Shown in pieces: positions 29,473 through 61,939 of a stretch of 64,000 nucleotides of DNA. How positions within the stretch are numbered: the first letter of the stretch is position 1; each line of letters opens with the position of its first letter. This DNA comes from Gordonibacter urolithinfaciens (GTDB taxonomy: Bacteria; Actinomycetota; Coriobacteriia; Coriobacteriales; Eggerthellaceae). The stretch lies in contig NZ_LT900217.1 of the NCBI RefSeq assembly GCF_900199375.1, positions 620,001 through 684,000 on the forward strand, given 5' to 3'. Made by a program: the position numbers and the translations under genes. The notes below the pieces were generated by a model. It searched no databases and had not been told where the DNA came from. It saw nothing but the letters and a program-made list of their open reading frames with translations.

Positions 29473-30912
29473 CTACCCGCCGTCGCGCTTCTCCAGCAGC
29501 TCCCGCCTCGAGTTGACCCCCGCCTTCTGGTAGATATGGTACGTGTGGGACTTCACCGTATGGGGCGACAGAAACAACTTCTCAGCGACGGCATTCGTAT
29601 CGTAGCCCTGCATTAGCAGCACAAGCACCTCGGTCTCTCGCCGCGACAGGCCGAACTCCTCGGCCATGGCCTTGCTCTTGGCGACGCCGCCGTCTACGCC
29701 GCCTGCCTCCCTCTCTGCACGCGCCGATGCCATACCCGGATCGTGGGGCATGACATCGATCTTGCCGCTGGCCGCCACCATGACGAACAGCAGCACGGCC
29801 AAGAAAAACGGCATGACGAAAGCGTAGTCGCGCGACAAGTCGAGGAAGTTCACGAGGACTAGGTTGACGGCACCTGCCGCCACCATGCCGCACTGAATGT
29901 ATATCCTGCCTCGGGCGATGCTCTTGATGGGCGTGAGGCGCAGCCGATCCGTCAGATCGAACAAGAAGCAGAACGTGGACGCGTCGAACGCGGTGAGCAA
30001 CATGAGCAGCAGCAGGTACATAACCCATTTCATGGTTCCCGACGCACCGGTGAGCACCATAAGGATAACTGCCACGGCAGGTAGCAGCACGGTAATGAAC
30101 GTCTCGAACGCAATGGCGCGCTTCGTGTGCACCTCGAAGAGCAGCAGGCCGCCCACGCCTGCGGCAAGCGCTAAGCCCGTCAGGGGGTAACTCACGTACA
30201 CTGGCAGATCAGGCGCCATGCAAGCATAGATGCCCACGCCGAACACGGCCCCGTAGATGACAAGGACAACGTTGCTCTTTCTGAGCGAGCGTGCGACATC
30301 CTTTGTCACAGGTCGATCGCCCAACGCATGGCTCGGCCAGAATTGATGCGTGAACACATAGCAAACAAGCGAGAGGAACGCCAGCAGCAGCGTAACGAAC
30401 ATACCGGCGGAAGAGGCCACCAGCGTAGTGAGCAAGAACAGCATCGCCCCAATGACGATGGATAGGTACAGGTAGCGCCGGACACTCTTGCGGTCCAGAT
30501 ACATGAACGCCTCGGCCCACAGGATATGGAAGGCACCCTGCCACATACCCGCCGCCAGCATGGCGATCGCGCATGGCCAACCGCCCAAGCCGAGCGCTTC
30601 GCCCAAGGCGCTCACCACCACCATGGCCGCAAGCGCAATATAAGCGGCGACGGCGAGCGGGATGCGGAATCGCGTGGAGCAGAAGCGTCCGAACAGCGCA
30701 TAGAGCGCCATCTCGAATACGACGATGCCCCCAAGGTAACCGATGCGGCCCACATCGCGCTGCAAGGACGAGAACGCGTCAAGCGGCGTGAACACGAAGC
30801 TGTAGGCGATGATGTACATGACGGCCCAGCAAAGGCCAAACCCCACCACGACGAATGGTGCGAACTGGCCGTACGAGACCTCGGTCACGCGCGCTTGTGC
30901 TTTCTCCGACAT
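29473..30912 (-). CDS. LuxR-family regulator with 12-helix membrane domain
   Basis: The 479-residue protein has about twelve hydrophobic helices over residues 15-385 and a C-terminal LuxR-type HTH from about 415 (LSRRETEVLVLLMQGY, LSPHTVKSHTYHIYQKAGVN). This membrane-LuxR architecture is typical of Eggerthellaceae, where many such genes stand beside molybdoenzyme or other reductase operons and are thought to sense the substrate. It is divergent from the module 2 molybdoenzyme with 334 bp between, so it probably controls it. ATG 30912 (MSEKAQARVT) fits the first helix and follows an AAAGGGGG site; the frame remains open upstream without coding character. Confidence 0.88.
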   Translation of the reverse strand: MSEKAQARVTEVSYGQFAPFVVVGFGLCWAVMYIIAYSFVFTPLDAFSSLQRDVGRIGYLGGIVVFEMALYALFGRFCSTRFRIPLAVAAYIALAAMVVVSALGEALGLGGWPCAIAMLAAGMWQGAFHILWAEAFMYLDRKSVRRYLYLSIVIGAMLFLLTTLVASSAGMFVTLLLAFLSLVCYVFTHQFWPSHALGDRPVTKDVARSLRKSNVVLVIYGAVFGVGIYACMAPDLPVYVSYPLTGLALAAGVGGLLLFEVHTKRAIAFETFITVLLPAVAVILMVLTGASGTMKWVMYLLLLMLLTAFDASTFCFLFDLTDRLRLTPIKSIARGRIYIQCGMVAAGAVNLVLVNFLDLSRDYAFVMPFFLAVLLFVMVAASGKIDVMPHDPGMASARAEREAGGVDGGVAKSKAMAEEFGLSRRETEVLVLLMQGYDTNAVAEKLFLSPHTVKSHTYHIYQKAGVNSRRELLEKRDGG

Positions 30913-31246: not shown

Positions 31247-33496
31247 ATGAGCGAGAACAAGTACCATCTCGTAGAGCACGAGAAGCCGTTCAAGTACGAT
31301 GAGGACGGCCTGCACGTCACGCGCGGCAGCGCCTGGTCGGGCCCCGGCTGCCATATCGGCTGCGGCGTGCTGCTGTACACCGACGACGAGGGGAAGCTCG
31401 TCAAGGTGGAGGGCGACCCGGAGAACCCCTACAACCAAGGCAGGCTCTGCAACCGCTGCCTGGCGCTGACCGAGGTGGTGTACAACCCCGACCGCGTCAC
31501 CACGCCCATGAGGCGCGATCCTGCGCACCGCGGTCAGGACAAGTGGGTGGACATCACCTGGGACGAGGCACTCGACCTCGTGTACGAGAAGTTCACCGAG
31601 ATCAAGGAGAACTACGGCGCCTGGTCCATCCCGTTCGTGCAGGGCACGGGGCGCGACATAGCTGCCTGGATCACGCGCCTGGCCTGGTCGTTCGGCAGCC
31701 CAAACTATATGTTCAACATGTCGGGCATGGCCTGTTACCTACCGCGCGTGGCCGGCTGCGCCGCCACGACGGGCAACTTCTGGGTGGGCGACTTCTCCCA
31801 GCAGTTCCCCGACCGCTATGACGATCCCGCCTGGGTCCCCGCCGAGTACATCATGGTATGGGGCAACAACCCGCTCGTCGCGAACTCGGACGGCTTCTAC
31901 GGTCATTGGATGGTCGACGTTATGAAGCGCGGCTCGAAGCTGATCGTGGTGGACCCGCGCTTGACGTGGCTCGCCTCGAAGGCCGAGTGGTGGCTGCAGG
32001 TGCGGCCGGGAACGGACGCGGCCCTCGCCCTCGGCATGCTGAACGTCATCATCTCCGAGGACCTCTACGACCACGATTTCGTGGACCGCTGGTGCTATGG
32101 CTTCGACGAGCTGGCCCAGACCGCGGCGGCCTACCCCGTTGGCAAGGTGGCCGAGATCACCTGGGTGCCCGCCGAGAAGATCGTCGGCGCGGCCCGCGCA
32201 TGGGCGGGTGCCGAGAACGGCATCGTGCAATGGGGCCTGGCCGTGGACACCACAAAGGAGTCGCTACCGGCGGCCCAGGCCATCGGGGCGCTGTGGCAGG
32301 TATGCGGCTTCTGCGAGAAACCGGGCTGCATGATCGTACCGCCCGAGATCCTGGCCTACTCCGGCGGGTTCGGCGGCGAGCTGGTCACGCCCGAGATGGA
32401 TGCGCACCGCATCGGACTGGACAAGTACTCCCTGCTGAAGTTCGGCTTCCAGGTGGCGTCCTCCGACGAGGTGATGAAAACGCTCGAGACCAAAGAGCCC
32501 TACAAGCTGCACGGCGCCTGGCTGCAAACGACGAACTTCCTCACCTGCACCTCCCCCGACCCCGAACGCTCCATGAGGGCCTGGCGCACGCTCGACTTCA
32601 TCGTGGTGGTGGATATGTTCATGACGCCCACGGCCATGGCGTTGGCCGACGTGTTCCTGCCAGCCTGCACCTATGCCGAGCGCGACGGCATCCGCGTGGG
32701 CGACGGCGCGCAGCGCGGCGAGACCATCAACAAGGTGTGCCAGGTGGGCGCATGCAAATCGGACATGCAGATCAACCTGGAACTGGGAAAGCGCTTCAAC
32801 CCCGAGGCGTGGCCGTGGAAGGACGACAAGGAGATGTTCAGCTCCGTCATCGCCTGCACGGGCTATACGTTCGAGGAGCTGCAGCAGGTGGCGCCCGCCT
32901 ACATCCCCTTCGAGTACGGCCGCCACGAGAAGGGCCTGCTGCGCCCCGACGGCCAACCCGGCTTCAACACGCAGACGGGACGCATCGAGCTGTGGTCGAC
33001 GTTCTACCACAATGCGGGCTTGAGCCCCGTGCCCTACTTCGAGGAGCCAACCGAGAGCCCGGCCGCGACACCCGACTTGTACGACGAGTACCCGTTCGTG
33101 CTCACCACCGGCGCGCGCAACTGGTTCATGTTCCACTCCGAGCATCGGCAGGTCCCGCACCTGCGAGCCGGCCGCCCCTGGCCCCTCGTGCAGATCAACC
33201 CCAAGGCCGCGGAGCGCATCGGCGTGCACGACGGCGAGTGGGTATGGCTGGAGAACGAGCGCGGTCGCTGCAAGCGCGTCGTGGAGTGCACGAACATCAT
33301 GGACGAGCGCGTGGTTATGTCCGATCACGGCTGGTGGTTCCCCGAGGCTCCCGGCGAGGAGAAGGACGGGCTGTTCGGCATGCTCGATCTGAACGTCAAC
33401 AAGCTTCTGAATTCGTACGTTCCCGGCAAATCCGGGTTCGGCGCCAACTACAAGTCCATGCTCTGCAAAATCTATCCCGCAAAGGACGGTGAATAA
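31247..33496 (+). CDS. Molybdopterin-dependent oxidoreductase, DMSO reductase family (module 2)
   Basis: The 749-residue enzyme has no signal peptide. The N-terminal cluster site is GPGCHIGCG and GRLCNRC (C35, C39, C68, C71): the first cysteine of the usual C-x2-C-x3-C-x27-C is Gly32, and an extra cysteine follows the last one. Then come VQGTGRDIAAW, MVWGNNPLVANSDGF, WLQVRPGTDAALALGMLNVI and the C-terminal dinucleotide-binding domain with DHGWWFPEAPGEE. It closely resembles the enzyme at 59211. The small Fe-S gene starts 2 bases after its stop. Candidate relatives are gut catechol dehydroxylases and pyrogallol transhydroxylase; the substrate is unproven. Start 31247 has GGAAGG; 31124 remains possible. 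Confidence 0.88.
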   Translation: MSENKYHLVEHEKPFKYDEDGLHVTRGSAWSGPGCHIGCGVLLYTDDEGKLVKVEGDPENPYNQGRLCNRCLALTEVVYNPDRVTTPMRRDPAHRGQDKWVDITWDEALDLVYEKFTEIKENYGAWSIPFVQGTGRDIAAWITRLAWSFGSPNYMFNMSGMACYLPRVAGCAATTGNFWVGDFSQQFPDRYDDPAWVPAEYIMVWGNNPLVANSDGFYGHWMVDVMKRGSKLIVVDPRLTWLASKAEWWLQVRPGTDAALALGMLNVIISEDLYDHDFVDRWCYGFDELAQTAAAYPVGKVAEITWVPAEKIVGAARAWAGAENGIVQWGLAVDTTKESLPAAQAIGALWQVCGFCEKPGCMIVPPEILAYSGGFGGELVTPEMDAHRIGLDKYSLLKFGFQVASSDEVMKTLETKEPYKLHGAWLQTTNFLTCTSPDPERSMRAWRTLDFIVVVDMFMTPTAMALADVFLPACTYAERDGIRVGDGAQRGETINKVCQVGACKSDMQINLELGKRFNPEAWPWKDDKEMFSSVIACTGYTFEELQQVAPAYIPFEYGRHEKGLLRPDGQPGFNTQTGRIELWSTFYHNAGLSPVPYFEEPTESPAATPDLYDEYPFVLTTGARNWFMFHSEHRQVPHLRAGRPWPLVQINPKAAERIGVHDGEWVWLENERGRCKRVVECTNIMDERVVMSDHGWWFPEAPGEEKDGLFGMLDLNVNKLLNSYVPGKSGFGANYKSMLCKIYPAKDGE

Positions 33497-33498
33497 TC

Positions 33499-33831
33499 AT
33501 GACGGAATACGGCATGCTCATCGACTACGAATGGTGCACCGGCTGCCATAGCTGCGAGACAGCCTGTCAGATGGAGCACCACCTGCCCGTCGGCCAGTTC
33601 GGCATCAAGCTGAACGAGATCGGCCCCTTCGAGTACGCCCCCGACCGCTGGCAGCTGTCCTACGTGCCGGTGCCCACCGACCTGTGCGACTTCTGCGCCG
33701 AGCGGCAGGCGAAGGGCAAGCTGCCTACCTGCCAGCACCACTGCCAGGCACAGTGTCTGGAAGTCGGTCCTATCGATGAGTTGGCCAAGAAGATCGCATC
33801 GAAGAAGAAACTCGTGTTGTTCAACATCTAA
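33499..33831 (+). CDS. Small two-cluster Fe-S subunit of module 2 molybdoenzyme
   Basis: The 110-residue protein has one complete CxxCxxCxxxC motif (C13, C16, C19, C23) and a second set LCDFC and TCQHHCQAQC. It resembles a DmsB-type electron-transfer subunit cut down to two [4Fe-4S] clusters. It starts 2 bases after the molybdoenzyme stop and should form a cytoplasmic complex with it. The paralogue at 58850 serves module 3 with the same IDY-x-x-C-x-GC start. Confidence 0.88.
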   Translation: MTEYGMLIDYEWCTGCHSCETACQMEHHLPVGQFGIKLNEIGPFEYAPDRWQLSYVPVPTDLCDFCAERQAKGKLPTCQHHCQAQCLEVGPIDELAKKIASKKKLVLFNI

Positions 33832-33900: not shown

Positions 33901-34290
33901 ATGGACAAAGTGAAGGGATGGGCACTCGCATTCGCCGTCGGCGGCCTGTATGCCGTTATTGGACAGATTATCTGGAACATATTCGCCGGCGCCCTGGGAG
34001 CCGATTTTCCCTATCTCGGACCTCTCACGCTGCTGGGGATGGGCGCGGTAGCCCTCGTGCTGTACCTTCCCGGCATCCAGCAGAGGATAGGCGCTGTGAG
34101 CGGTTTCGGCTCGATCCTGCCGTTCAACGGGTTCGCAGGCGGCGTGGCAGGCGCCTACGAAAGGGCCGTTGCCGAAACCGGACAGCCAGGTAAAGGCGTG
34201 GCGGCGTCTGTAAAGCTCGTTCTGCTCGTCATCGGTGTCGGCGGCCTCGTCGACGCAATCGTGGGCGCATTGGCGTTCCTCGTGGCATAG
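33901..34290 (+). CDS. SpoVAC-like membrane protein (SpoVA family)
   Basis: The 129-residue protein has about four hydrophobic segments. The block GMGAVALVLYLPGIQQRIGA, then FGSILPFNGFAGGVAGAYE and a final VKLVLLVIGVGGLVDAIVGA, follows the SpoVAC/SpoVAE pattern (short-helix pair, GAG-x-x-x-P-x-x-GF, E-x-x, K-x-x-x-x-V). In spore formers SpoVA proteins move dipicolinic acid across the forespore membrane. No sporulation is expected here; the gene sits in a molybdoenzyme operon with GAAGGAGGAAG before ATG. Transport of an aromatic acid substrate is an attractive inference. Confidence 0.65.
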   Translation: MDKVKGWALAFAVGGLYAVIGQIIWNIFAGALGADFPYLGPLTLLGMGAVALVLYLPGIQQRIGAVSGFGSILPFNGFAGGVAGAYERAVAETGQPGKGVAASVKLVLLVIGVGGLVDAIVGALAFLVA

Positions 34291-34301
34291 GAGGCACCGC
34301 A

Positions 34302-34697
34302 ATGGAATTCATCATGGCTTTCCTAGTGGGCGGAACGCTCTGCCTTCTGTTTCAAATCGTCGCGGACGCCACGAAAGCGCCCGTTCCCCTCATCTTGCTC
34401 GTCGGTTTGGCCCTTGGAGGCATCCTGACGCCCTTCGGCATCATGGATCAACTCGCAGAGTGGGGCGGCGCCGGCTTCACCATCATGGTGGTGGGCGCCG
34501 GGCAGGCCGTTTGCGCCACGACGCAGGCAGCTCTCGCCGGCAACCCCTGGCCGCTGCTGTCCGTCATCGGCGTGTTCTTAGCCCTCACGGCCATCGGATT
34601 GGTCTGCGGAAGCGGATACTGCGCACTCCACAAGCAGGACGACAACGCACATGGGGACGATGCGGCCGAAAAGCAAGCTACGATCGCTCGCCAATGA
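34302..34697 (+). CDS. SpoVAE-like membrane protein (SpoVA family)
   Basis: The 131-residue protein begins MEFIMAFLVGGTLCLLFQIV, close to SpoVAEb proteins (FLVGG-x-x-C-x-x-x-Q). It goes on with a PLILLVGLALGGILTPFGIM helix, a GGAGFTIMVVGAG segment and a final helix ending in a hydrophilic His/Asp-rich tail. It follows the SpoVAC-like gene by 11 bases with an AGGAGG site. SpoVAC and SpoVAE proteins act together in DPA transport, so the pair here probably forms one membrane complex. The tail after residue 110 is not part of the family pattern. Confidence 0.6.
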   Translation: MEFIMAFLVGGTLCLLFQIVADATKAPVPLILLVGLALGGILTPFGIMDQLAEWGGAGFTIMVVGAGQAVCATTQAALAGNPWPLLSVIGVFLALTAIGLVCGSGYCALHKQDDNAHGDDAAEKQATIARQ

Positions 34698-34772: not shown

Positions 34773-34964
34773 ATGTCATGTGGATACGCCTGCGTAAGCT
34801 GCGGACGCTGCCGGGGAAAGCCCCGGAAGTTGAACATCACTACTGTGTGCTTCCGTTGCGGGCACAAGAACCCCGAAGGCGCGGCACGATGCGAGAATTG
34901 CGGCCTCGAACTTCCGCGTCCACCGAAACCGTCCATCCCCATCGTCGCGGCCCAGCCGGAATAG
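34773..34964 (+). CDS. Small zinc-ribbon protein (CGRCRG family, copy 1)
   Basis: The 63-residue protein has four CxxC pairs: CVSCGRCRG near the N-terminus and CFRCGHKNPEGAARCENCG in the middle. It ends in a Pro-rich tail. The family member at 57075 in module 3 shares the CxxCGRCRG start and the double ribbon, NPEGAARC against DPGTRAC. AAGGAG precedes ATG 34773. It is the last gene of the module 2 operon, with a terminator hairpin 20 bases further on. No function is known; a role in assembly of, or electron transfer to, the molybdoenzyme is possible. Confidence 0.75.
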   Translation: MSCGYACVSCGRCRGKPRKLNITTVCFRCGHKNPEGAARCENCGLELPRPPKPSIPIVAAQPE

Positions 34965-34984: not shown

Positions 34985-35013
34985 AGAAGGGCCCGGATTG
35001 TTCGGGCCCTTCT
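34985..35013 (+). terminator. Terminator of the module 2 operon
   Basis: A perfect 11-bp stem (34985-34995 and 35003-35013) followed by a CTCTTC stretch lies 20 bases after the zinc-ribbon stop. Confidence 0.7.
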
Positions 35014-57074: not shown

Positions 57075-57284
57075 TCAAGCGGTAGTGCCCGGATCGCGCT
57101 GCGGCATGCCCGGCGCGAGGCTCGTCGTGCCGGATTGCAGCTCGAGGGAGCCGCCGCAGGCGGCGCAGGCGCGCGTGCCCGGATCGTTCATGCAGCCGCA
57201 CGACGGGCAGCGGCGCACGAGGATGGCCGGAGGCTTCTCGCCCCGGCAGCGGCCGCAGTTCATGCAGTAATGGCAGTTGCCCAT
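57075..57284 (-). CDS. Small zinc-ribbon protein (CGRCRG family, copy 2)
   Basis: The 69-residue protein starts MGNCHYCMNCGRCRGEKPPA and has a second ribbon with RRCPSCGCMNDPGTRACAAC. It shares CxxCGRCRG and the ribbon spacing with the module 2 protein at 34773. The tail is hydrophilic. It follows the MFS gene by 65 bases at the end of the leftward module 3 operon. ATG 57284 has GGGGAGGGGG upstream. Confidence 0.75.
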   Translation of the reverse strand: MGNCHYCMNCGRCRGEKPPAILVRRCPSCGCMNDPGTRACAACGGSLELQSGTTSLAPGMPQRDPGTTA

Positions 57285-57349
57285 AAGCAGCCCCCTCCCC
57301 TCGCTTCACGTGGGGAACCGGGCGGCTCGGCGCCCGGTTCCCGCTGTTC

Positions 57350-58618
57350 TTACTCCGCCTGCTCGTCGGGAGCGGCCGCCTGCTCGTCGGCTATCTTGCG
57401 TGCCACGGAGCTGCGCACGTTCGGGAACAGGAAGAGCGACGCCGCGGCAACGAGGCAGAGCACGGCCGTGGCCACGTAGACGCCCTGGTAGTACGGCACG
57501 CCGTCCACGGCCCCCGTCGCCGCGATGGCGAGGGGCGAGATCACGTAGGACGCGATGAGGAACATGCCGAAGTTCTGGAGCGTGGCCTGGATGCCGCCCA
57601 CCACGCCGTAGTGCTCGGGCTTCACGCTGGGAAGCAGCGTGGGGAGCATCTTCGTGAACGGCATGACCGAGGCCATGAGCATGGGCTGTATGCAGAAGAG
57701 CGCCCAGGTGAGAGGCCCGTACGGCAGGAAGAACACGAGCGCGAAGCACGCGGCGGTGCCCACGAGGCAGATGATGAAGGGCGCCCGCATGTTCTTGAAA
57801 AGCTTCGCGAACACCACCGGCAGCGCCATGGAAGCCACGCAGGCGATCACCGTGTTCAGCGTGGACAGGTCGCCCGCCACGGCCGTAAGGCTCGGATCGC
57901 CCATGAGCGTGGTCACGGCAGCCACCATGTAGGAGCCGTTCACGTTCGTCATGCCGAACACCAGAAGCGCCACGATGGCCACGGCCCACACGTGCCCGTT
58001 CCTCACCACCACGCGCAGGTACGTGCCCACCGGCTCGACCGAGCGGTGCTCGCCGTCGGGATGCTTGCGATACACCGCGAACCACGCCATCACGCCCACC
58101 ACCATGAGGCCGAAGCTGAACCACCACGCGTCCTGGATGGAGGCCACGCGCGAGCCGTACCAGATGGCCAGCGCTGCGCCGGCCGACATGCCGGCCGTGT
58201 ACACGCCCATGGCGAACGAGTTCGCCGTCCCGGGGAACCACAGGCGCAGGAGCTTCGCGGAGTTCGCGTTGAGCGCCGCCACGCCCATGCCCATGAAGAA
58301 GCTCGAGGCGAAGAGCGTCCAGTAGTCGGCCGAGAAGCAGCGCGCGAACGCGCCCAGAAGCGACACGACGAACGCCGCCGCGAACACCTTGCCGAGGCCC
58401 AGGCGGTCGGCCAGCACGCCACCGGCCATGCAGAACAGCACGCCCGAGAAGTACGGAATGGACATGATCATGGAGAACATCATGGGCTCGCACTGGTACT
58501 GCTGCATCACCAGAATCGCCGCGCCGCCCGGCACGATGAACGAGAACTGCAGGCTCACGAGCAGCACCGTCATGCCTATCAGGATGGCCCATCGCCACGG
58601 ATAGAGTTTCTCTTGCAT
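57350..58618 (-). CDS. MFS transporter (module 3, left)
   Basis: The 422-residue protein has twelve helices, the MFS motif ADRLGLGKVFAAAF after helix 2, and a cytoplasmic loop near the middle (YRKHPDGEHRSVE). It belongs with the carboxylate/nitrate-type MFS importers by general style; the substrate is not deducible. It lies between the Fe-S subunit gene and the zinc-ribbon gene on the same strand, so it probably moves substrate or product of the molybdoenzyme. ATG 58618 is preceded by a GAAAGGAT-free AAGGGGG region at about 58628. Confidence 0.88.
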   Translation of the reverse strand: MQEKLYPWRWAILIGMTVLLVSLQFSFIVPGGAAILVMQQYQCEPMMFSMIMSIPYFSGVLFCMAGGVLADRLGLGKVFAAAFVVSLLGAFARCFSADYWTLFASSFFMGMGVAALNANSAKLLRLWFPGTANSFAMGVYTAGMSAGAALAIWYGSRVASIQDAWWFSFGLMVVGVMAWFAVYRKHPDGEHRSVEPVGTYLRVVVRNGHVWAVAIVALLVFGMTNVNGSYMVAAVTTLMGDPSLTAVAGDLSTLNTVIACVASMALPVVFAKLFKNMRAPFIICLVGTAACFALVFFLPYGPLTWALFCIQPMLMASVMPFTKMLPTLLPSVKPEHYGVVGGIQATLQNFGMFLIASYVISPLAIAATGAVDGVPYYQGVYVATAVLCLVAAASLFLFPNVRSSVARKIADEQAAAPDEQAE

Positions 58619-58762
58619 GTTCGACCCCCTTGCGAAACGAAAAGGTAACACCCGGCGCGCCCCTTGCACGCCGGGCGGTGAGGCCGTTGAAGAGCCTCGT
58701 CCGAAACGCCACCAGCCGGTCGTTTTACCGACCAGCCGATCCATGGTGCAGATTGTGAAGCG

Positions 58763-58787
58763 GGCGGGCGGCTTGGCGCCGCCCGCC
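58763..58787 (-). terminator. Hairpin between Fe-S subunit gene and MFS gene
   Basis: A perfect 10-bp GC stem (58763-58772 and 58778-58787) lies 63 bases after the Fe-S gene stop, without a T-run. It may lower transcription of the MFS gene. Confidence 0.45.
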
Positions 58788-58849
58788 GAGAGAGGGAGCG
58801 CGGCGGGAGCGGAAAGCCCCACCCGCCGCAGCGCCTTCCCGCCGCGAGG

Positions 58850-59197
58850 CTACTTCGCGAAGATCACCATCTTGTCCTTCGCGGCCGCCTTCGCCTTGGC
58901 GGCGAGCTCCTCCAGCGTGCCGTAGACCATGACGCCGGCCTGGCAGTGGTGCACGCAGGTGGGAAGCTTGCCGGCCTCCACGCGCACGGCGCACAGGTCG
59001 CACAGGTGCGTGGGCACGGGCAGGTGGTCGTACTCCCACACGCCGTCGGAGCACTGGCGCGGGCCGTCCTGCACGATCTTGATGCCGAAGTCGCCCTTGG
59101 GCAGGTCGTGCTCCTTCTTGCAGGCCACCTCGCAGGCGTGGCAACCCGAGCAGTACTGGTAGTCGATCAGAAGGCCGTATTCGCCGATGTTTGCCAT
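58850..59197 (-). CDS. Small two-cluster Fe-S subunit of module 3 molybdoenzyme
   Basis: The 115-residue protein has CSGCHACEVAC (C16, C19, C22, C26) and a second set LCDLC and TCVHHC. It matches the module 2 subunit in order (IDYQYCSGCH against IDYEWCTGCH) and in LPVPTHLCDLCA. It should carry electrons between the molybdoenzyme and a cytoplasmic donor or acceptor. The gene starts 13 bases after the molybdoenzyme stop. Confidence 0.88.
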   Translation of the reverse strand: MANIGEYGLLIDYQYCSGCHACEVACKKEHDLPKGDFGIKIVQDGPRQCSDGVWEYDHLPVPTHLCDLCAVRVEAGKLPTCVHHCQAGVMVYGTLEELAAKAKAAAKDKMVIFAK

Positions 59198-59210
59198 GAG
59201 TACCTCCTCC

Positions 59211-61610
59211 TTACTTGTTCTGGTCGTAGAAGCTCGGCGTGTCGCTCTTGTGCGACGGGCCGTGCGTGTAGCCGTTCGTGGCCGTCACCTGGTAGGTGGG
59301 CTGGTCCTCGGGCGCGCTGTTCTCGGGCGTGCAGGGGTACACCTTCGCCATGCCGCACTTGATGGGCGCGCCGTAGCCGCTGTCGCCGTTCTCGCACATG
59401 GGAATGAGGTTGTTCGGGTTGCAGTCGAACACGCCGAACAGGCTCGGCTCGGCCGCCTCCTGCTCGGGGAACCACCAGCCGTGCTCGGTGGACACCACGC
59501 GCTCATCGAGCGTGGCGTTCAGGCGCACGACCTGGCGGCACTTGCCCATCTGGTTCTCGATCCAGGCCCACTCGCCCTCGTGCAGCCCGTACTTCGCCGC
59601 CGTGTCGGGGTGGATGTCGAAGTACGGCACCGGGTGCAGCTCGCGCGAGGTGGTGTTCGCCTGGCGCCACTCGGAGTGGAAGAACTCGAAGGAGCGCTTG
59701 CCCGTGGTGAGCACGAGCGGGTACTCCTCGGCGAGCTCCGGCGTTGCCACGGGGCTGGTGGGCGGCTCCTCGTAGTACGGCAGCGCGTCCACGCCCCAGC
59801 TGTCGAACAGGCTGATGTAGAACTCGTAGCGGCCCGTGGGCGTCATGAAGCCGGGCTGGCCGTCGGGGCGCAGCAGGCCCTTCTCGTACTTGTAGTAGCG
59901 GAAGTCGTTGTAGATCATGCCCGCATGCTCGTTCTCCAGCTCCTCCATGGTGAAGCCGCAATTGCCCACCTGCAGGCGCCAGTTCATGTAGTCGCGGGGC
60001 TCCTTGACCCACTCCGGCCACGCATCGGGATTGAGGCGGTGGCCCAGATCGATCATGATCTGCTCGTCCTCCTTCGCCTCGTAGAAGCTGGAGCACTTCG
60101 TGAGCGAGCGGACCGGATCGAACCACACGCGGATGCAGTCGCGCTCGTTGGACATGGCGCAGGGCAGCAGGAGGTCGGCGCATGCTACGGCGAACGGGGT
60201 CTTGAACAGGTCGACCACGCAGATGAACGGGACGTTCTTCATGGCGCGGTAGATGCGCGGGGCGTCCTGGCCCATGTTCGTGATGGGGTTGGAGGACTGG
60301 ATCCACAGCATGTTCACCGGGCGCGGATCGCCCTTCTCGTCGAGGCCGGTCTCGCATGCCACGAGGATGCAGTCGGACTGCGACGACGCCGTGAAGCCGT
60401 ACTTCTTCAGGTTGTACTTGGAGTTGCCCAGGCGCTTCTCGACCATGCCCTCCTTCAGGTACTCGATGCCGGAGTTGTAGCCGAACTCCAGGCCGCAGGC
60501 CTGGTCGATGAGGATGTTGCCGCCGGGGTTGTCGATGTTGCCCGTGATGCCGGCCAAACACGCGATGGCATGGGCCGTAGGGGTGCCGATCTTGGACATG
60601 TCCACCGCAAGGCCCCACTGGATGGTGGAGGGGTGCGCCTTGGCGTAGAAACGTGCGGCCTCCACGATAAGCTCGGGCTCGACCCAGCAGATCTCGGCCA
60701 CCTTCTCAACCGGATAGTCTTTCACGCGCTCGGCGAGCGCCTCGTAGCCGTAGGTCCACTTGTCGATGAAGTCGTGGTCCACGAGGTCCTCGCCGATGAT
60801 GACGTTCATCATGCCGAGGGCGAGCGCCGCGTCGGTGCCGGGGCGCAGGCGCAGCCAGTACTTCGACTTGGAGGCGATCCACGTGAGCTGCGGGTCGATG
60901 GTCACGAGCTTGCTGCCGCGCTTCATGGCCTCCACGATCCAGTGGCCGAGGAAGGCGTCGGAGTTGCACACCACCGGGTTCGTGCCCCAGATGACGATGC
61001 ACTCGGGAATCTGCCACTCGGGGTCGTTCTCGTAGCGGTCGGGGCGGAACTGGCTCATGTCTGCCACCCACTGGTTGCCCATGACCACGTAGCAGAGCGC
61101 CGTGCGGGGCAGCATGCACGAGTCGCCCGACAGGAAGCAGAGCGTGAGGTCGGGGCCGCCGAAGTTAGCGTACTGGTTGTGCGCGATAACCTGCGATACG
61201 TTGCGGCCGGTGCCGATCATGGAGATGATGGACTCGGGGCCGTCCTTCTCCTGGAACGCGCGCACCTTCTCCTCGATGAGGTCGTAGGCCTCGTCCCAGC
61301 TCACGCGCTCCCACTTGTCCTCGCCGCGCTCGCCTGCGCGCTTCAGGGGGTAGCGCAGGCGCTCCTCGTGGTTCACGAGCTCGGGCAGCTCCAGGCAGCG
61401 CATGCAGAGGCGCCCCTGGTTGAACGGGCTGTTGGGGTCGCCCTCCACCTTCACGAGCTTGCCGTCGTCGTCCGTGTAGAAGATGACCTGGCATCCCTCG
61501 TGGCAGCCCGGGCCCGACCACATGGTCGTGCGCGTGGCGGTGAGGTCGCCTTCCTTCCAGTGCAGCTTCTTCGGGTACAGGTCAAGGTTGTACTCGTTGT
61601 TGTACTCCAT
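59211..61610 (-). CDS. Molybdopterin-dependent oxidoreductase, DMSO reductase family (module 3)
   Basis: The 799-residue enzyme lacks a signal peptide. Its N-terminal site is GPGCHEGCQ and GRLCMRC (C36, C40, C69, C72), the same spacing as in module 2, again with Gly in place of the first cysteine. Then follow MIGTGRNVSQV, IVIWGTNPVVCNSDAF, WLRLRPGTDAALALGMMNVI and a C-terminal domain with TEHGWWFPEQEAAE. It is about 50 residues longer than the module 2 enzyme, at the C-terminus. With MFS transporters next to it and a soluble Fe-S subunit it resembles cytosolic catechol dehydroxylase loci of gut actinobacteria. ATG 61610 has GAGGAATAGG upstream. Confidence 0.9.
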   Translation of the reverse strand: MEYNNEYNLDLYPKKLHWKEGDLTATRTTMWSGPGCHEGCQVIFYTDDDGKLVKVEGDPNSPFNQGRLCMRCLELPELVNHEERLRYPLKRAGERGEDKWERVSWDEAYDLIEEKVRAFQEKDGPESIISMIGTGRNVSQVIAHNQYANFGGPDLTLCFLSGDSCMLPRTALCYVVMGNQWVADMSQFRPDRYENDPEWQIPECIVIWGTNPVVCNSDAFLGHWIVEAMKRGSKLVTIDPQLTWIASKSKYWLRLRPGTDAALALGMMNVIIGEDLVDHDFIDKWTYGYEALAERVKDYPVEKVAEICWVEPELIVEAARFYAKAHPSTIQWGLAVDMSKIGTPTAHAIACLAGITGNIDNPGGNILIDQACGLEFGYNSGIEYLKEGMVEKRLGNSKYNLKKYGFTASSQSDCILVACETGLDEKGDPRPVNMLWIQSSNPITNMGQDAPRIYRAMKNVPFICVVDLFKTPFAVACADLLLPCAMSNERDCIRVWFDPVRSLTKCSSFYEAKEDEQIMIDLGHRLNPDAWPEWVKEPRDYMNWRLQVGNCGFTMEELENEHAGMIYNDFRYYKYEKGLLRPDGQPGFMTPTGRYEFYISLFDSWGVDALPYYEEPPTSPVATPELAEEYPLVLTTGKRSFEFFHSEWRQANTTSRELHPVPYFDIHPDTAAKYGLHEGEWAWIENQMGKCRQVVRLNATLDERVVSTEHGWWFPEQEAAEPSLFGVFDCNPNNLIPMCENGDSGYGAPIKCGMAKVYPCTPENSAPEDQPTYQVTATNGYTHGPSHKSDTPSFYDQNK

Positions 61611-61939
61611 ACCTATTCCTCTCTTCCCTCGTCCTTTGGGTCTCCGAACGCCGGGTGGAACCGGCCGCTCGTCGAATACCGCCATTCTAGGGAGCGGGCC
61701 TGCGGCCGCGAAACGGAGGAAGTTCCAAAAACTCGGGCGAACTTTTGGAACATCCTCTATAGGCCGCCGATCGGGGCGTTTTCTATACTGCAAAGCGTGG
61801 CGGACCCGTCGGACGCTGTGGACGTGAAACGCGTCGTGCCTGATGGGAGAGGTATCCGCTCGCAGCGAATGCCGCGCGCGGCCATGCGCCGACGCACCGC
61901 CAACCTGTCGGAACCAATCGGGAAAGAGGTTGAGAGACC
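61611..61939. promoter_or_regulatory. Divergent promoter region of module 3
   Basis: It separates the leftward molybdoenzyme operon from the rightward zinc-ribbon/MFS pair. It contains the palindrome GTTCCAAAA-N12-TTTTGGAAC (61722-61751), a TATAGA -10-like element toward the left (61761 down to 61756), and a TATACT toward the right (61784-61789). Confidence 0.55.
61722..61751. promoter_or_regulatory. 30-bp palindromic operator candidate
   Basis: Two perfect 9-bp half sites, GTTCCAAAA and TTTTGGAAC, are separated by 12 bases, so their centres are 21 bp or two helical turns apart. The site lies between the two divergent -10 candidates and suits a dimeric regulator, perhaps a PucR-like protein of this module. 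Confidence 0.6.

Follow-up and report, generated by a model that had tools for sequence, protein, structure and literature searches.

The window analysed here is a 64,000-nucleotide stretch of the Gordonibacter urolithinfaciens genome, and near its middle lie two adjacent genes for small membrane proteins, here called A and B (Table 1). The genes for a molybdoenzyme, a small Fe-S protein, A, B and a zinc-ribbon protein are all on the forward strand with short gaps, and from this arrangement they apparently form one operon. Shine-Dalgarno-like sequences were found close 5′ of both the A and the B reading frames. The first-pass annotation had placed the pair between the Fe-S subunit of a molybdoenzyme and a zinc-ribbon protein, and the 4Fe-4S gene upstream and the PF13240 gene downstream bear this out. 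The start of the divergent LuxR-type gene was inferred from homology, and its longest reading frame extends to 31404. Its product belongs to a described family of membrane-LuxR regulators (PMC9734109). The hairpin behind the last gene possibly marks the operon end; it was missed by the terminator scan because it has no T tract.

Table 1. The SpoVA-like pair, its neighbours and the loci compared with it. Positions refer to the window unless a contig or locus is named.
Feature	Position	Strand	Remarks
LuxR-type regulator, divergent	29473..30912	-	Pfam GerE E 1.7e-15; ~11 predicted N-terminal TM helices (hydropathy)
Soluble molybdopterin oxidoreductase, catechol-dehydroxylase-like	31247..33496	+	Pfam PF00384/PF01568/PF04879; start inferred at MSENKYH
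Small 4Fe-4S electron-transfer protein	33499..33831	+	110 aa; Pfam Fer4 families; DMSO_dmsB-like (NCBIfam)
SpoVAC-like membrane protein A	33901..34290	+	129 aa; PF03862 above cut-off; hhalign closer to SpoVAC than SpoVAE
SpoVAE-like membrane protein B	34302..34697	+	131 aa; PF03862 above cut-off; hhalign closer to SpoVAE than SpoVAC
Zinc-ribbon protein	34773..34964	+	63 aa; PF13240 above cut-off; homologues recurrent in related modules
10-bp perfect hairpin	34986..35012	+	3′ of last gene; read from sequence; possible operon end
Comparison module 3: molybdoenzyme, Fe-S, MFS, zinc ribbon	57075..61793	-	MFS_1 E 5.3e-28
Core SpoVA paralogue of the same genome	near C1:2412865-2413542; L054:7608-8624 (G000:C1)		

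Compared with Pfam family PF03862 (SpoVAC/SpoVAEB), whose gathering cut-off is 25 bits, A scored 30.7 bits (E 4.2e-7) and B scored 40.7 bits (E 3.5e-10). Five Bacillota plasmids supplied SpoVAC and SpoVAE sequences for a profile comparison (hhalign), which gave E values for A of 5.7e-14 with SpoVAC and 3.3e-9 with SpoVAE, and for B of 1.2e-12 with SpoVAE and 3.8e-9 with SpoVAC. Both results agree with the first-pass annotation, which had described adjacent small membrane proteins of the SpoVAC and SpoVAE pattern and had suggested the Pfam search as a check. The N-terminal FLVGG that it gave for the pair is present in B, whereas A reads FAVGG. The top NCBIfam match of A was spore_V_AC (TIGR02838), with 25.4 bits against an equivalog cut-off of 164, and that of B was spore_V_AE (TIGR02839), with 42.5 bits against 131.1. 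As these scores are far under the cut-offs, we term A and B SpoVA-like and not sporulation equivalogs. Identity to the spore proteins was ~24–31% in profile alignments and ~30–34% in tblastn pieces. SpoVAE carries a polar PITSFGN stretch that B, by its alignment, has not retained. A sequence match between B and PDB 7qhm_J (E 0.011) was taken as chance.

Modelled by itself with AlphaFold2, B reached a mediocre pLDDT of 71, and a structure search with this model returned no useful match. The model of a natural C-E fusion (L079), which itself lies in an enzyme operon, reached a pLDDT of 90.8 and a pTM of 0.84. It confidently predicts a membrane fold of two similar halves for this relative, with helices broken at the conserved motif. 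No solved structure close to this model was found. The best VIA Z was 4.3, for an ExbB chain, and Foldseek returned nothing with E < 0.001.

A list of conserved core genes of sporulation includes SpoVAC and SpoVAEb (PMC3533761), whose products form a DPA-conducting membrane complex of spores (PMC13059800). The host had been called non-spore-forming, and we likewise saw no sign of sporulation in the two genes searched for, Spo0A and SpoVAD. The genome (G000), a single contig of 3.29 Mb, gave no match to Spo0A (PF08769), for which the B. subtilis control was positive. For SpoVAD (PF07451), there was no match above cut-off in 137 Eggerthellaceae, this genome included. The operon likewise contains no SpoVAD gene, and no gene lies between A and B.

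The best solved relative of the enzyme is acetylene hydratase (2e7z, 283 bits), which is reported to be the nearest relative of the catechol dehydroxylases (PMC7028382). No Tat motif was found in the enzyme, whose N-terminus, MSENKYHLVEH, has no RR. With a soluble bis-MGD subunit, no Tat signal, a small 4Fe-4S partner and kinship to acetylene hydratase, it follows the Gordonibacter-type layout, which is described as having no Tat motif and a small 4Fe-4S partner (PMC11887054). Neighbours described for such enzymes include MFS genes (PMC12771579) and LuxR regulators (PMC9734109). The MFS genes beside such cytoplasmic enzymes are presumed to serve substrate import (PMC12771579; PMC7028382).

Module 3 of the window had been cited as carrying an MFS gene in the slot of the pair, and an MFS_1 gene is indeed located there between the Fe-S and zinc-ribbon genes. 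Among relatives of the enzyme, the slot behind the Fe-S gene may hold an MFS-sized membrane protein, a SpoVA pair or a 4-TM protein of ~175 aa, or it may hold none of these; the Pfam comparison covers some of these membrane proteins. The 4-TM protein (MHSKKYYIIYGLFFS...) was seen 3′ of the Fe-S gene in L110, L112, L115, L116, L119, L122 and L123 and is possibly another transporter type. Its one member examined, from L116, had no Pfam match. A zinc-ribbon protein (often MCGYACxxCGRCG...) recurs by these enzymes, with SpoVA, MFS or no transporter.

The most direct comparison comes from the adk-secY site. In the host genome and in G065, a genome of the same genus, this site holds the LuxR, enzyme, Fe-S, C, E and zinc-ribbon genes. 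In two other Gordonibacter species (G066 and G068), it holds a 93%-identical enzyme, MFS-type genes and two further enzymes, and no SpoVA; one MFS gene of this locus was compared with Pfam, and secY is visible in the G066 stretch only. An 85%-identical orthologous enzyme in G011 (L100), in an apparently similar setting, adjoins neither SpoVA nor MFS; such enzymes may thus not need a dedicated transporter. Overall, the pair was present in only 5 of ~55 relatives of the enzyme at ≥60% identity, among the matches listed, of which no more than seven were scored in each genome.

PF03862 was present in 49 of 138 Eggerthellaceae and in 74 of 397 Coriobacteriales. Across the phylum sample, it was found in 3 of 396 genomes, all three of them Eggerthellaceae. 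Two kinds of SpoVA occur in this family: a fused core paralogue, and split pairs or shorter fusions that mostly adjoin molybdoenzymes. The core paralogue (~300–340 aa; ~316–338 aa for that at L054) is conserved in many Eggerthellaceae, mostly in settings without a molybdoenzyme, and the host genome has only one further SpoVA locus besides the pair (Table 1). In a tree of joined C and E sequences, the core paralogue formed one clade (support 100), and the molybdoenzyme-linked sequences were scattered over several lineages, with weak deeper branches. The core gene is often followed by a gene for a 2-TM protein of ~98 aa that has no Pfam match. At L067:1330-8820, a core-type fusion ends a co-directional string of genes for a molybdoenzyme, an Fe-S protein, a sodium:sulfate-symporter-family protein and a CitMHS-family transporter. 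Another small-molecule setting was seen at L150:6037-10238, where a fused SpoVA-like gene is co-directional with genes for an enoate-reductase-like flavoenzyme and a zinc alcohol dehydrogenase.

A molybdoenzyme was found within 4 kb at 16 of 20 non-core Eggerthellaceae loci and within 5 kb at 4 of 20 core-paralogue loci (Fisher p 4e-4). A co-directional one was found within 1.6 kb at 11 of 21 non-core loci (L079 added) and at none of 20 core loci (Fisher p 2e-4); as the loci are kin by descent, these two p-values overstate independence. The survey of Eggerthellaceae that the first-pass annotation had called for was favourable for the non-core loci, but the core paralogue lies mostly far from such enzymes. 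The four non-core loci without a molybdoenzyme were L039, L041, L042 and L044, and L042 meets a contig end. At L044:3269-8860, a SpoVA pair lies 3′ of genes for two URO-D-family proteins, an MFS protein and a CobW protein. MFS genes are also near SpoVA in L034 and L045. Where SpoVA pairs adjoin molybdoenzymes, the large membrane proteins nearby are mostly LuxR regulators and not MFS. A 489-aa membrane protein of L037 and L047 was considered as MFS and ruled out: that of L047 is a LuxR protein, and that of L037 matches the LuxR query.

The order molybdoenzyme, Fe-S, C, E, zinc ribbon was also found in Ca. Gordonibacter avicola (L035/L078), in L036 and, outside Eggerthellaceae, in L138 from another Coriobacteriales family. 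Three further loci outside Eggerthellaceae showed related orders. L079 has zinc ribbon, enzyme, Fe-S and fused SpoVA, and L151 has a fused C-E SpoVA after the enzyme and Fe-S genes. In L146, SpoVA also follows the enzyme and Fe-S genes, and the contig has only the C-terminal domain of the enzyme. At L151:2447-4747, two SpoVA fusions stand in tandem behind one molybdoenzyme and Fe-S gene. At L040:8186-9427, the molybdoenzyme gene is decayed, and the SpoVA pair and the zinc ribbon are intact; in a sister species of the same genus (L041), the enzyme gene is gone and the pair and zinc ribbon are kept. No molybdoenzyme was found beside the SpoVA fusions of Atopobiaceae-type genomes (Parafannyhessea, Olsenella and others); the homologues without a molybdoenzyme include L081-L089.

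Given the recurrence of the pair, its association with molybdoenzymes and the exchange with MFS at the adk-secY site, the reading that it occupies the transporter slot of the enzyme operon is well supported by sequence comparison. Since related dehydroxylating enzymes carry a transporter in this slot, the pair probably moves the aromatic substrate or product of the enzyme. We lean towards the view that A and B form a SpoVAC/SpoVAE-type heteromeric complex serving as a permeation path for the catechol-dehydroxylase-like enzyme. Such a C-E complex, without a SpoVAD plug, would give the cytoplasmic molybdoenzyme a path through the membrane. An aromatic, probably carboxylated phenolic, substrate would enter and/or the dehydroxylated product would leave, a task that in such operons usually falls to MFS transporters. 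As the operon has no ATPase, facilitated diffusion driven by substrate consumption would be the most likely mode. Its pore or carrier activity, cargo and direction are what we infer from these comparisons. The first-pass annotation had proposed that a SpoVA complex serves the molybdoenzyme. Family membership, operon setting, recurrence and the MFS exchange at one locus favour this proposal, but other findings speak against a strict link: most core and Atopobiaceae homologues lie at a distance from such enzymes, most relatives of the enzyme have no pair, and in L040 and L041 the pair outlasts the enzyme.

The main alternative gives the pair a general role as a vegetative osmotic or mechanosensitive channel; it would have come to lie by molybdoenzymes through chance or operon drift and would be untied to the substrate of the enzyme. 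For SpoVAC in spores, an osmotic/mechanosensitive channel has been proposed. The homologues without molybdoenzymes, both Atopobiaceae and core, fit this alternative, as does the pair kept after enzyme loss in L041. Molybdoenzymes are also very abundant: a search of the 3.3 Mb host genome (G000) for molybdopterin oxidoreductases gave 66 matches or more. However, the association recurs in several separate lineages and families with the same gene order, MFS takes the place of the pair at one locus, and adjacency is far rarer for the core paralogues. We consider a general channel unlikely.

In other molybdoenzyme operons, L048 among them, anchor genes lie directly after the Fe-S gene, the position that the pair takes here. 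It could in principle anchor the soluble enzyme or the Fe-S subunit to the membrane and relay quinol electrons like DmsC/NrfD. However, neither the A nor the B alignment contains an invariant His or Cys, and orthologous enzymes occur without the pair. We rejected this role as highly improbable mainly because L048 carries both the pair and its own DmsC-family anchor. Least probable of all is a part in sensing, with the pair handing an inducer to the membrane-LuxR regulator or forming a complex with it. A membrane-LuxR gene does lie near many SpoVA-molybdoenzyme loci, but modules whose transporter is MFS, or which have none, often carry such a gene too.

If the permeation reading is right, this operon would offer a vegetative, genetically tractable system for small-aromatic-acid movement by SpoVA complexes, and an unrecognised transporter type in gut polyphenol metabolism. 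Within the genus, G. urolithinfaciens DSM 27213 can be transformed (PMC9734109). A SpoVA match by itself is no marker of spore formation. More broadly, with a chance that we put a little short of even, the Coriobacteriia SpoVA proteins, split or fused, may be a separate permeation-complex family of anaerobic gut metabolism, including phenolic-acid movers that replace MFS in catechol-dehydroxylase operons, and SpoVA would then not be sporulation-specific. The first-pass annotation knew of no description of this family in use outside sporulation. In agreement, no paper linking SpoVA with Eggerthella or Gordonibacter was found in the literature searched, a scope outside which most subscription papers lie.

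Compared with SpoVAC-SpoVAD-SpoVAEb of Bacillus and Clostridium spores, the pair belongs to the same Pfam family and keeps the C-then-E order, and a heteromeric two-half membrane complex would be expected in both. In contrast to the spore system, it is without SpoVAD, is only distantly similar in sequence, and lies in a metabolic operon of a genome without Spo0A. The Eggerthella-type catechol dehydroxylases (Dadh, Hcdh and Cadh) are of the same broad class as the enzyme here, but Tat export and a membrane anchor are reported for them and the enzyme here shows neither. The operon also resembles the Gordonibacter-type operons (Dodh and Eadh), which share the cytoplasmic molybdoenzyme, the small 4Fe-4S partner, the LuxR gene and the kinship to acetylene hydratase. 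By sequence, the enzyme here is a candidate dehydroxylase, and where those operons have an MFS transporter, this one has the SpoVA pair instead.
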